Positions 5,252 to 18,857 of a stretch of DNA of 47,686 nt are shown piece by piece (positions within the stretch are counted from its first letter, which is position 1; every line of letters starts with the position of its first letter). The notes below the pieces were generated by a model that saw only the letters and a list, made by a program, of their open reading frames with translations, did not search any database and was not told the origin of the DNA. The DNA is from Firmicutes bacterium ZOR0006 (lineage in GTDB: Bacteria; Bacillota_I; Bacilli_A; Culicoidibacterales; ZOR0006), in assembly GCA_000798955.1 (NCBI GenBank), contig JTLC01000030.1, positions 1 through 47,686 of the forward strand, written 5' to 3'. Both the position numbers and the translations under genes were made by a program.

Positions 5252-5281
5252 AAAAAAAGACAAAAGAAAACGCCTTTTGTC
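5252..5281 (-). terminator. minus-strand terminator upstream of terL
   Basis: Read on the minus strand, GACAAAAG and CTTTTGTC (8-bp stem, 7-base loop) are followed by seven T. It would stop transcripts entering from the right, including a candidate antisense RNA of the small peptide gene at 5335. It ends one base before the -35 box of that gene. Confidence 0.75.
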
Positions 5282-5310
5282 TTGATAACCAACTTCAAGA
5301 ATAGTGTAAT
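5282..5310 (+). promoter_or_regulatory. promoter of small-peptide cassette 1
   Basis: TTGATA (5282-5287) and TGTAAT (5305-5310) are separated by 17 bases, and the AGGAGGTGAA ribosome site begins 11 bases later. Transcription runs against the surrounding minus-strand late genes, so the cassette is expressed separately, probably in the lysogen. Confidence 0.65.
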
Positions 5311-5334
5311 TATAAATGTTAGGAGGTGAAACAA

Positions 5335-5463
5335 GTGGGAAAACGTAAAAATAAAAAAGCAAAGCTCACACTAGAAAATGTAACTTTGCTCATCGTCGCT
5401 ATCCAAGGATTACTATCAATTATCCTTGAAATAGTGAAATTCTTAATCGAAATAAGCGAATAA
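5335..5463 (+). CDS. Hol-Tox-like hydrophobic small peptide (cassette 1, ORF1)
   Basis: A GTG start at 5335 behind a strong AGGAGGTGAA site opens a 42-residue peptide. It has a very basic N-terminus (MGKRKNKKAK), then one hydrophobic helix (VTLLIVAIQGLLSIILEIV, about residues 16-34) and an acidic tail. This pattern resembles the putative holin-like toxin (Hol-Tox) peptides of Bacillota prophages and type I toxins. A hairpin follows 12 bases after the stop, and an antisense promoter faces it. It is too short for ordinary gene callers. Its likely role is membrane depolarisation or growth control when the antisense RNA falls, but this is inference from shape and layout. Confidence 0.7.
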   Translation: MGKRKNKKAKLTLENVTLLIVAIQGLLSIILEIVKFLIEISE

Positions 5464-5475
5464 GAATCTTGAGGT

Positions 5476-5491
5476 GAGGGCTGACCCCCTC
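5476..5491 (+). promoter_or_regulatory. hairpin after peptide gene (cassette 1)
   Basis: GAGGG and CCCTC enclose the 6-base loop CTGACC, followed by TTCTC. It may be a weak terminator or a stabilising 3' structure, and on the other strand it would be the 5' hairpin of the antisense RNA. The equivalent in cassette 2 at 18427-18442 has a loop of the same size that also contains TGAC. Confidence 0.5.
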
Positions 5492-5528
5492 TTCTCATAC
5501 TTATATTATCACATTCCCACTTAAAATT

Positions 5529-5648
5529 ATGTTAGAAAATAAAACACCATTTTGGAAATTCATAACTATTATCGCTTTTATAGCTGCTTGTTTCTTGTTA
5601 ATACGTACTATTCTTGAAATTATAACATTTATCAACTCACTATTTTAA
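5529..5648 (+). CDS. 39-residue membrane peptide (cassette 1, ORF2)
   Basis: An ATG at 5529 opens 39 codons encoding a largely hydrophobic peptide with aromatic N-terminus (TPFWKF) and one membrane helix (about residues 10-34). There is no Shine-Dalgarno, so it may be translated only from read-through or leaderless transcripts. Its position, 65 bases after ORF1 and 13 before the DNA-binding ORF3, matches cassette 2 (63 and 12 bases). That parallel is the main reason to believe it is real. I do not recognise a family. Confidence 0.5.
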   Translation: MLENKTPFWKFITIIAFIAACFLLIRTILEIITFINSLF

Positions 5649-16568: not shown

Positions 16569-17420
16569 ATGGAAGAGATAACAAAAACTGTCGTCAAAGT
16601 GACAAGTAAGGTTCCAACAGGAATGACCGAGCCTTTAACCGCTATGTTGGACGATGACACTAAGGTATTCATCAAGCGTAACAATCACACGGCATTCGGA
16701 AACTTTTTCCTTATAAACGAGTGGATTGGATTTAAATTAGGCGAAATGCTTCAGTTGAATCAACCTAAATTCGGTATTGCGATGATGGGAGTGAATTTAG
16801 ATGCTTCACTGCTTGAAAGTAAATATTTTCCAGGTGATTGCACATACTGTTCTTATACAGAAGCAATAACATTGGCCCAAACATATAACTCTCAGGAGAT
16901 CAGCCACTTATTAAGTGTTATGGATGAAGAAGAAATTAAACTATTCATAGAGGTGGTTTTTTATGATGCGATTATTTATAATGGTGATAGAGATAATGGT
17001 CAGAATATTCTAATCGATTCAAATTTACGAACATTCGCTTTTGATTATACTCACGCATTTTACTCACCTTTTGACTGGAATAGAAAATCAACATTTGCGA
17101 GTATTTACGATAATGATGATCCCGATGAAAATTTTGCTTCACTCGATGGAATATTTGATGAAAACTCAGGAATATACGAAGCATTAGCTGAAATTCCTAA
17201 TAGTTACCTGCTTGTTGATGATATTTATACAAAGTTCGATAAATTATTTACATTACAACTAATTGACGATGTATTCACTAGCATTCCTGATGAATTATTT
17301 GAATTTGGCATTGATAGGTGTGATTTGAAATATTTACAACACTTTATCGAAACTAGATTTTACCAATTAGCGCTTATTCGTGAAAAACTATACACTTTGA
17401 TGGGAGGTGAGCGGCGATGA
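16569..17420 (+). CDS. HipA-like kinase (HipA_2 type)
   Basis: The 283-residue protein starts at ATG 16569 behind AAGGAGG, 33 bases after the CI stop. It carries the HipA_2-type catalytic loop YNGDRDNGQNILID (about 138-150) and the metal site FAFDYTHAF (Asp159), with a KVFIKRNNHTAFGNF segment for nucleotide binding. The kinase is of serine/threonine type; in HipA proteins it phosphorylates a cell target and slows growth. No HipB antitoxin is beside it; a 262-residue partner overlaps its end. It is transcribed with CI, so it is lysogen-expressed, which suits a defence or exclusion role. Confidence 0.78.
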   Translation: MEEITKTVVKVTSKVPTGMTEPLTAMLDDDTKVFIKRNNHTAFGNFFLINEWIGFKLGEMLQLNQPKFGIAMMGVNLDASLLESKYFPGDCTYCSYTEAITLAQTYNSQEISHLLSVMDEEEIKLFIEVVFYDAIIYNGDRDNGQNILIDSNLRTFAFDYTHAFYSPFDWNRKSTFASIYDNDDPDENFASLDGIFDENSGIYEALAEIPNSYLLVDDIYTKFDKLFTLQLIDDVFTSIPDELFEFGIDRCDLKYLQHFIETRFYQLALIREKLYTLMGGERR

Positions 17421-18205
17421 ATAATGAATTAGTAACTTTACAATATGCAATTTTGAAATACAGAAAAGATGTAGTCTTGCCAGAAAACAATGAATTCCAA
17501 GAAACATTGATTGTTGGTGCTATTTTCTATATCAAAGAAACAAATTACCGAAAGATTTTCTTTACTAAGAATCACAATGACTTCTTTAACAAAAAAGTGT
17601 TCACTGGAAAGTTAACATTTACAATGTATACAGAAGCAATTGAGCAAAATTGGCATCAATCACTCTTCAATACCGAACGGAACGAAAATATCAATCTTGA
17701 AACGTTCACACACAAGTACGTCAATAACTTCTACTTCTCATCTATCAAGCAGCGAACAATCAACAGTGATAATGTAGCAAGTGAAATTAAACTTTTTTGT
17801 GAAAATATCGACAAAGTAGAATTTTCTCCAACGAAGAAAAAACCAGATGAATTAAAAAAAGCGCTTCGAAATGCTTTAACAAATTACACGCTTGTCACAC
17901 CAAATGAACACATCAGAGGTGAATTTGGCGATACGTTCAAAGTTGCATTCAGTAGTGGTAACGATGCATACGTATTGTTAGACTTTAGTTCTCATGGGCC
18001 GAACTTTTGGAATCACATCCGTTCGATTGCATATTTCGCATCAAATAGTGAAAACGTGAACCTCTATCTCGTTTACACCGCACCTGGCAACGATACAAAA
18101 CATGTAGAGCAGTTCCACCAAGCTGTAAAATTACTGGAACACAATAAAGTAACATGTATTAATCAAGCAAACCTATCACAATATATTTTCGATAAATACA
18201 ACTAA
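17417..18205 (+). CDS. DUF3037-like partner of HipA-like kinase
   Basis: ATG 17417 overlaps the kinase stop by four bases (ATGA), so it is coupled. The 262-residue N-terminus (LQYAILKYRKDVVLPENNEF, then LIVGAIFY) resembles DUF3037, a family usually found next to HipA-type kinases. The C-terminal 90 residues (GDTFKVAFSSGNDAYVLLDF, then ASNSENVNLYLVYTAPG) look like a separate beta-rich domain that I do not recognise. The pair probably acts as a two-component effector of phage exclusion or growth control, but this is inference. A bidirectional terminator follows directly. Confidence 0.6.
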   Translation: MNNELVTLQYAILKYRKDVVLPENNEFQETLIVGAIFYIKETNYRKIFFTKNHNDFFNKKVFTGKLTFTMYTEAIEQNWHQSLFNTERNENINLETFTHKYVNNFYFSSIKQRTINSDNVASEIKLFCENIDKVEFSPTKKKPDELKKALRNALTNYTLVTPNEHIRGEFGDTFKVAFSSGNDAYVLLDFSSHGPNFWNHIRSIAYFASNSENVNLYLVYTAPGNDTKHVEQFHQAVKLLEHNKVTCINQANLSQYIFDKYN

Positions 18206-18207
18206 AC

Positions 18208-18239
18208 AAAAAAAGCCCCCTTTCTCAAGGAGGCTTTTT
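18208..18239. terminator. bidirectional terminator
   Basis: A stem of AAAAAGCC..CCT with AGG..GGCTTTTT ends the CI-HipA operon on the plus strand. On the minus strand it is followed by seven T and would end an antisense RNA of the next peptide gene. Confidence 0.85.
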
Positions 18240-18273
18240 CTTCTTTTTCACCTGTTTTTTTTGCTACTTTCTA

Positions 18274-18302
18274 TTGAAAAAACGGACGCCGTTTATTATA
18301 AT
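18274..18302 (+). promoter_or_regulatory. promoter with palindromic operator, small-peptide cassette 2
   Basis: TTGAAA (18274-18279) and TATAAT (18297-18302) are 17 bases apart, a near-consensus promoter. The spacer holds a perfect 15-bp palindrome, AAACGG-ACG-CCGTTT (18280-18294), placed between -35 and -10 where a bound protein would block polymerase. The likely binder is the small regulator at 18634-18816 or another phage repressor. Confidence 0.75.
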
Positions 18303-18324
18303 AAAAGAGTAGGAGGTGAACAAA

Positions 18325-18420
18325 ATGCATAGACATTCTAAGCGGAAAATTGAAGGTAAAATCAAGGTTTCGATTAATTTAGTTATTGTGAAGTTTACAT
18401 TCAATTTAGTCCGAAAATAA
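18325..18420 (+). CDS. 31-residue cationic peptide (cassette 2, ORF1)
   Basis: ATG 18325 lies 5 bases after AGGAGGTGAA and opens 31 codons. The peptide begins with a basic MHRHSKRK and has alternating hydrophobic and polar residues (KIKVSINLVIVKFTFNLV), suggesting an amphipathic strand. The leader and RBS copy those of the Hol-Tox-like gene at 5335. It is followed by a 5-bp hairpin (18427-18442) and faces a candidate antisense promoter. No family is recognised. Confidence 0.6.
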   Translation: MHRHSKRKIEGKIKVSINLVIVKFTFNLVRK

Positions 18421-18426
18421 GAGTTC

Positions 18427-18442
18427 GGGAGTGACAGCTCCC
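18427..18442 (+). promoter_or_regulatory. hairpin after peptide gene (cassette 2)
   Basis: GGGAG and CTCCC enclose the 6-base loop TGACAG, followed by TCTCTT. It is the counterpart of the hairpin at 5476-5491, with stem length and loop size conserved. Confidence 0.5.
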
Positions 18443-18483
18443 TCTCTTACCACTTAGAATACCATAAACGCATTTGATAATCT

Positions 18484-18621
18484 ATGAAAAAAACATTTGA
18501 TTTCAAAAAATTTAAAGTTGAAATGACTGTTACACGTCAAAAAATCACAGTAAAATCAACGCTACAACTTCTTGCAGTTATTACAATAGTTGCAGCAATC
18601 ATTTACTTATTCACACGCTAG
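18484..18621 (+). CDS. 45-residue membrane peptide (cassette 2, ORF2)
   Basis: ATG 18484 opens a 45-codon frame with a basic N-terminal half (KKTFDFKKFKVEMTVTRQK) and one membrane helix (LQLLAVITIVAAIIYLF) near the C-terminus. No Shine-Dalgarno precedes it. It ends 12 bases before ORF3. The same place in cassette 1 is held by a 39-residue membrane peptide, also without an RBS. I do not recognise a family. Confidence 0.5.
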   Translation: MKKTFDFKKFKVEMTVTRQKITVKSTLQLLAVITIVAAIIYLFTR

Positions 18622-18633
18622 GAGGATATTTCA

Positions 18634-18816
18634 ATGCAAAAAACAGAACGTGTCTTGAATGTGATGTTCAATAAGCCATCACCAGCCGGTAAAATTCCAT
18701 CACCCCGAATGACGATTCCAAAGCAATGGTTAGAAGCAATGGGAGTGAATCCAGAAGAGCGATCAGTCGTTGCAATATTTGATGGTGAAAAAATTATTAT
18801 CAAGAAAGCCGAATAA
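18634..18816 (+). CDS. AbrB/SpoVT-like small regulator (cassette 2, ORF3)
   Basis: ATG 18634 follows AGGAGGATATTTCA. The 60-residue protein (PRMTIPKQWLEAMGV, then SVVAIFDGEKIIIKK) matches the swapped-hairpin AbrB/SpoVT fold used by many antitoxins and transition regulators. It lacks a C-terminal domain. It is likely to bind DNA, perhaps the 18280-18294 palindrome of its own promoter. A terminator follows at 18831-18857. Confidence 0.75.
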   Translation: MQKTERVLNVMFNKPSPAGKIPSPRMTIPKQWLEAMGVNPEERSVVAIFDGEKIIIKKAE

Positions 18817-18830
18817 TACGAGAAGAATGA

Positions 18831-18857
18831 AGCTAGTCACTATGACTGGCTTTTTTT
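18831..18857 (+). terminator. terminator of cassette 2
   Basis: AGCTAGTCA and TGACTGGCT form a stem followed by seven T, ending the regulator cassette before the integrase promoter. Confidence 0.85.

Follow-up and report, generated by a model that had tools for sequence, protein, structure and literature searches.

Two prophage cassettes with paired small peptides, a predicted antisense RNA and a small regulator as candidate addiction modules

The window analyzed here is a stretch of 47,686 nucleotides, contig JTLC01000030.1 of Firmicutes bacterium ZOR0006, and it carries two small cassettes (Table 1). Each consists of a promoter, a first short open reading frame (ORF1), a hairpin, a second short frame for a membrane peptide without a Shine-Dalgarno (SD) sequence (ORF2), and the gene of a small regulator. 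A preliminary description had proposed that cassette 2 copies the plan of cassette 1 without sequence identity. The coordinates confirm that the order is the same, and the near-equal spacers (63/65 and 12/13 nt) are exact. The best DNA match between the cassettes is an 11-nt SD stretch (E 0.19), which is the ribosome binding site that they were said to share; no other significant DNA similarity was detected. The antisense RNA lengths had been given as 247 and 241 nt; a uniform rule predicts 241 nt in both. The hairpin of 5 bp with a 6-nt loop is present in both cassettes, but was rejected as a universal mark because the loops of relatives vary from 3 to 7 nt.

Table 1. Features of the two cassettes in the window.
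Feature	Position	Strand	Remark
Cassette 1 promoter TTGATA-N17-TGTAAT	5282..5310	+	
Cassette 1 ORF1, 42-aa basic and hydrophobic peptide	5335..5463	+	GTG start
Cassette 1 hairpin GAGGG-CUGACC-CCCUC	5470..5497	.	
Cassette 1 predicted antisense RNA, ~241 nt	5257..5498	-	-10 TGT-GATAAT; terminator 5283-5257
Cassette 1 ORF2, 39-aa membrane peptide	5529..5648	+	no Shine-Dalgarno
Cassette 1 regulator, MerR/excisionase-like HTH, 66 aa	5662..5862	+	
Cassette 2 operon promoter TTGAAA-N17-TATAAT	18274..18302	+	11/12 consensus positions match
Cassette 2 palindrome AAACGG-ACG-CCGTTT	18280..18294	.	within promoter spacer; AbrB-like regulator predicted to bind here
Cassette 2 predicted operator AAACGGACGCCGTTT	promoter spacer		putative own site of the AbrB-like regulator
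Cassette 2 ORF1 Shine-Dalgarno AGGAGGTGA	18311..18319	+	duplex -16.1 kcal/mol
Cassette 2 ORF1, 31-aa cationic peptide	18325..18420	+	candidate toxin
Cassette 2 hairpin, core GGGAG-UGACAG-CUCCC	18418..18449	.	predicted antisense RNA 5' stem-loop and its mRNA mirror
Cassette 2 antisense extended -10 (TGG-TATTCT)	18456..18464	-	
Cassette 2 predicted antisense RNA, ~241 nt	18208..18449	-	ends at terminator 18241-18208
Cassette 2 ORF2, 45-aa membrane (TM) peptide	18484..18621	+	no Shine-Dalgarno; SD energy -0.7 kcal/mol
Cassette 2 regulator, AbrB/MazE-fold, 60 aa	18634..18816	+	phrog_2329
Cassette 2 operon terminator	18829..18853	+	

Both window strands were scanned for the plan, defined as ORF1 with an SD, a hairpin, a membrane ORF2 without one, and a small regulator. 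Exactly two loci were returned, cassettes 1 and 2, and none in dinucleotide-shuffled windows (0/15). The likeness of the cassettes is therefore not a chance coincidence. Both have an upstream minus-strand terminator and both run against adjacent minus-strand phage genes. An Rfam search of the window gave no match. Between the repressor and cassette 2 (16569-18205) lies the gene of a HipA-like kinase (HipA_2, E 4.3e-11), followed by an overlapping gene whose 262-aa product has no convincing family assignment; the two are likely an accessory or defence pair.

The preliminary description had called for a search for the architecture outside the window, and the plan was found to recur. Two more copies lie in the host genome on contig C24, and ~20 further diverged copies are present on phages and plasmids of Clostridioides and Terrisporobacter and in related genomes. 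With the AbrB-like protein of cassette 2 (phrog_2329) as the lead, modules were located in the Clostridioides phages phiCD08011, phiCDKH02, AR1074-1, CD2301, Hain-Saunders-2022a and ES-S-0173-01, in C. difficile plasmids, in the Terrisporobacter plasmid pTM2, and in other Peptostreptococcaceae and related genomes. This regulator occurs in 21/71 of the Peptostreptococcaceae genomes searched, only some of which have the module; many AbrB relatives are standalone, each with its own palindromic operators. The modules are located near int or parA, and tandem or multiple copies are frequent (two each in C24, pTM2 and CD2301, four in ES-S-0173-01). The four in ES-S-0173-01 are all different and form a tandem array of ~3.5 kb on the minus strand (L146, ~21-25 kb), with AbrB, AbrB, XRE and AbrB regulators. 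The cassette 1 ORF1 and MerR-type regulator found no match as queries against phages, and the regulator was detected only in the window genome among 395 Bacilli and 71 Peptostreptococcaceae genomes. Its sole relative (L053:2501-2692, 58%) is standalone, and the promoter region of that gene contains ATAGTATT-N6-AATACTAT.

Conservation was assessed with 19 modules, and kinship-reduced tests used 14 less related representatives. Order and spacing are maintained across the 19 modules. The plan persists in around two dozen diverged copies whose ORF1, ORF2 and regulator sequences vary, which supports the modular, part-swapping system that had been proposed, and the aligned homologues have many features in common where a lack of any had been named as the outcome that would speak against it. 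L130 and L108 retain the promoter palindrome of this type, the hairpin and the AbrB gene, but have a 69-aa acidic protein in the place of ORF1 and lack ORF2. L114 is a module remnant in which selection appears relaxed.

Over the 19 modules, the median SD energy was -15.9 kcal/mol for ORF1, -8.9 for the regulator and +1.0 for ORF2, the best ORF2 value being -3.9. Thirty ordinary window genes gave a baseline of -9.05, and 1/30 was weaker than -4. A strong SD precedes ORF1 in 19/19 modules and ORF2 is without one in 19/19. L136 is an exception, with AAGGAG 11 nt upstream of ORF2. The preliminary description had named an ORF2 untranslated in both cassettes as an outcome that would speak against it. 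In well-diverged C. difficile pairs the dN/dS of ORF2 is mostly 0.14-0.31, and this purifying selection indicates that ORF2 is translated in relatives. ORF1 is also under purifying selection, and a cationic, mostly hydrophobic peptide is conserved. Nearly all ORF1 peptides have a basic N-terminus, a hydrophobic C-terminus and a clear TM-like segment, which is absent in C24a and marginal in cassette 2, a cationic peptide of only marginal hydrophobicity. Apart from the TM segment in these two, ORF1 combines a small hydrophobic peptide with a strong ribosome binding site, as type I toxins do. Neither ORF1 nor ORF2 matched a curated toxin family among Pfam and NCBIfam profiles at E up to 1.

Cognate ORF1 and ORF2 peptides align better with each other than with those of other modules (permutation p 2e-5 raw, 1.6e-4 composition-corrected, in a test designed after the sequences had been seen). 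The resemblance is clearest in ESSb, pTM2b and L124, and suggests that the two ORFs cooperate or arose via duplication. Alternatively, the effector proper could be ORF2. ORF1 would then be a leader whose translation unfolds the hairpin or brings ribosomes to ORF2, comparable to the part that mok plays for hok. The lack of an SD at ORF2 throughout is compatible with such a role, as are the ORF1 stop at or just ahead of the hairpin and an SD-like GAGGA at ORF2 in L114, which has lost ORF1 and the hairpin. However, the 37-77 nt that separate ORF1 from ORF2 are a long distance for reinitiation, and a cationic, mostly hydrophobic ORF1 under purifying selection is more than a leader requires. We consider a leader function unlikely.

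In 18/19 modules an extended -10 of the TGN-TATAAT type is found on the minus strand of the ORF1-ORF2 interval, ~20-30 nt ahead of the ORF2 start. Fisher p was 2.7e-10 for the 19 modules and 2.8e-7 for the 14 representatives, compared with 0.98 and 0.91 for the sense strand. The -10 of cassette 2 is weak by itself (p ~0.2), and the significance comes across modules. The predicted antisense RNA would be paired from no more than 16 nt after its predicted start, and no more than 11 nt in 18/19. The covariance analysis that had been suggested was carried out with 16 aligned hairpins. The stems covary, with 167/176 pairs kept using 33 pair types (matched in 0/5000 shuffles, or re-pairings), while the loops are hypervariable and differ between alleles. 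Because the hairpin is placed at the predicted 5' end with its stem kept and its loop variable, we infer that it is the recognition stem-loop of the antisense RNA. The putative RNA is supported by sequence conservation, namely of the -10 and of this 5' stem-loop. L006 and L068 have one stem in common, and their loops, UUGCAC and GUGCAA, are each other's reverse complement, which is what an inversion of the hairpin would produce. An antisense terminator was identified by a simple rule in 5/19 modules, one of them being the operator palindrome. It is strong in cassettes 1 and 2; as a general module feature it is not supported, most relatives having no obvious one.

The model of the cassette 2 regulator shows the AbrB/MazE swapped-hairpin fold (pLDDT 89). 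PDB fold matches to AbrB and MazE had probabilities of 0.96-0.99, but E values of 0.18-0.26; the profile of the AbrB-like regulator matched abrB at E 1e-3, and the Pfam match of E 7e-4 was just under the cut-off. On the predicted structure, the protein belongs to the AbrB/MazE swapped-hairpin DNA-binding family. The name MerR-like, given earlier to the cassette 1 regulator, goes back to weak matches of a relative (E 0.028) and is kept here as MerR/excisionase-like. In 14/19 modules the ORF1 promoter contains a palindrome between its -35 and its -10 (p 1.8e-9 over representatives). That of cassette 2 has no second copy anywhere in the window. In cassette 1, HainS, ESSa, ESSb and L112 the best promoter palindrome was not significant; cassette 1, whose regulator differs, has no promoter palindrome such as the AbrB modules have. 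The predicted C24b operator is ATTGGTTACCAAT. Related regulators have predicted operators in common across contexts: ATTGGTWACCAAT is found at C24b and L136 and also at the standalone L063 gene, and TGACGTAACGTCA at phiCD08011 and at the standalone L104 gene. Standalone AbrB relatives in L004, L005, L010, L011 and L065 have several flanking TTCGTACGAA palindromes.

The last position is filled by one of three regulator folds that are unrelated to each other: AbrB, MerR/excisionase-like (cassette 1) or XRE (ES-S-0173-01). The XRE regulator (HTH_3, E 2.4e-9) is preceded by an SD, and its module has the hairpin ATACAAGAGG-TCGCAC-CCTCTTGTAT. On the antisense strand of that module a TGT-TATAAT lies 23 nt ahead of ORF2 (MKRDTK...), which again lacks an SD. 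L050, from C. difficile, is a naturally occurring chimera with respect to ORF1. Its ORF1 is 98-100% identical to the L028 type, and from the hairpin through ORF2 to AbrB it matches the L038 type at 95-100% identity, which places the breakpoint near the hairpin. Because L050 joins ORF1 and hairpin-ORF2-AbrB of different alleles, it offers direct sequence evidence that module parts are exchanged.

We propose, with a probability of roughly two in three, that the cassettes are alleles of one kind of addiction module, mobile and autoregulated, which has paired peptides and resembles type I toxin-antitoxin systems. A single promoter would serve ORF1, ORF2 and the regulator. The regulator, a dimer by family, would bind the palindrome between -35 and -10 and repress its own operon, as the conservation of the operator suggests. 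From the opposite strand, a promoter just upstream of ORF2 would produce an antisense RNA of ~240 nt in the two cassettes of the window. Judging by the conserved promoter, this RNA would cover ORF1 and its ribosome binding site and not ORF2, and the variable loop of its 5' stem-loop would provide pairing specificity. It would silence ORF1, the likely toxin, which is small, cationic and in nearly all copies hydrophobic. ORF2, the matched membrane peptide, lacks an SD and hence may be translated weakly, or only via coupling or after RNA processing, and could either act alongside ORF1 as a second toxin or, as its partner, moderate its effect. When the prophage or plasmid is lost, the unstable antisense RNA would disappear first and the lingering mRNA would kill or arrest the cell. 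Alleles that differ in regulator, operator and loop could coexist in one cell, and recombination would exchange their parts. We read the modules as addictive because of their mobile setting, their parA and proven-toxin homologue neighbours, the predicted antisense control and the cationic, mostly hydrophobic peptides. Against this, an addiction module has no obvious need of an autorepressor.

More speculatively, ORF2 could be a dedicated neutraliser of ORF1, descended from it or co-evolving with it, and made without an SD from mRNA that survives antisense destruction of the ORF1 part. We hold this role to be improbable. If true, the transcript would give toxin without the antisense RNA, and neutraliser plus repressor with it, and the modules would form a class of toxin-antitoxin systems in which control is layered over RNA, peptide and transcription and parts can be exchanged. 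It also seems rather improbable that the cassettes are effector operons for exclusion, in which a naive, repressor-free cell receives a burst of peptide that shuts out competing phages or changes the membrane for as long as regulator is still building up, with the antisense RNA merely trimming the burst. The regulator gene comes last in an operon that appears to be autorepressed, both cassettes oppose neighbouring phage genes, and the modules lie near int or parA, all of which would suit exclusion. By itself, however, this explanation leaves the conserved antisense promoter and the covarying recognition hairpin unaccounted for, and alleles stacked in one element suit addiction better. That the AbrB-like protein is itself the toxin, like SymE under SymR antisense control, is very improbable: its fold adjoins the predicted antisense RNA and one homologue is annotated SymE, but the SymE_toxin profile, which has a cut-off of 29, gave only weak matches of 12.3 and 14.9 bits, the predicted RNA stops short of the AbrB gene, standalone homologues have their own operators, and other regulator folds occupy the slot.

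Read as addiction modules, the cassettes combine antisense control, autorepression and a conserved SD-less gene, in genomes where nearly all genes have an SD. They make the use of SD-less starts and the exchange of toxin-antitoxin parts testable. No description of the paired-peptide module was found in the literature searched, and the family, widespread on phages and plasmids, is apparently undescribed, adding to what is known of the mobile elements of gut Bacillota and Clostridia.

The regulator fold is common to the MazE/AbrB antitoxin and SymE families. No MazF-like toxin gene, which a type II MazEF system would have, was found inside the modules. In hok/mok/sok, mok overlaps hok and no autorepressor is known. 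The modules resemble it in having a predicted antisense RNA directed at a candidate membrane toxin and possibly a coupled reading frame, and have no sequence relation to it. In C. difficile, CD0956.2 and CD0977.1 with their RCd RNAs are type I modules of phages and plasmids with proven prophage stabilisation (PMC7699646). They too are small, hydrophobic, cationic peptides with an antisense RNA (predicted in our case), on phages and plasmids, but have a hydrophobic N-terminus and a lysine-rich C-terminus, the opposite topology to ORF1, and no second peptide or regulator is described for them (PMC7699646). ORF1 was therefore rejected as a member of the CD0956.2/CD0904.1 family, the true homologue being a separate upstream ORF. 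In C. difficile phages the module adjoins parA and a CD0956.2-like toxin, yet it is not described with these proven addiction genes in PMC7699646, the text of which does not mention AbrB. In the parA regions of C. difficile phages and of a plasmid, a CD0956.2-like type I toxin ORF immediately precedes the module (L006:1262-1414, L068:938-1096, L008:1077-1184, L075:41-139). The parA-region system 'gp33' of PMC7699646 is unlikely to be ORF1, as a CD0956.2-like ORF of the described topology is directly upstream. The closest analogue is yonT/yoyJ/SR6 of the Bacillus subtilis prophage SP-beta, in which SR6 overlaps the yonT 3' end and the yoyJ 5' end (PMC5848175, PMC8464778). Both are prophage operons that encode two small membrane peptides in succession and have a single antisense RNA, here predicted. 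The layout is different (PMC5848175): the accessible text of these papers reports no adjacent repressor, whereas the module has one, and the antisense -10 lies upstream of ORF2, so that the predicted RNA starts there and covers ORF1 rather than overlapping both peptides.
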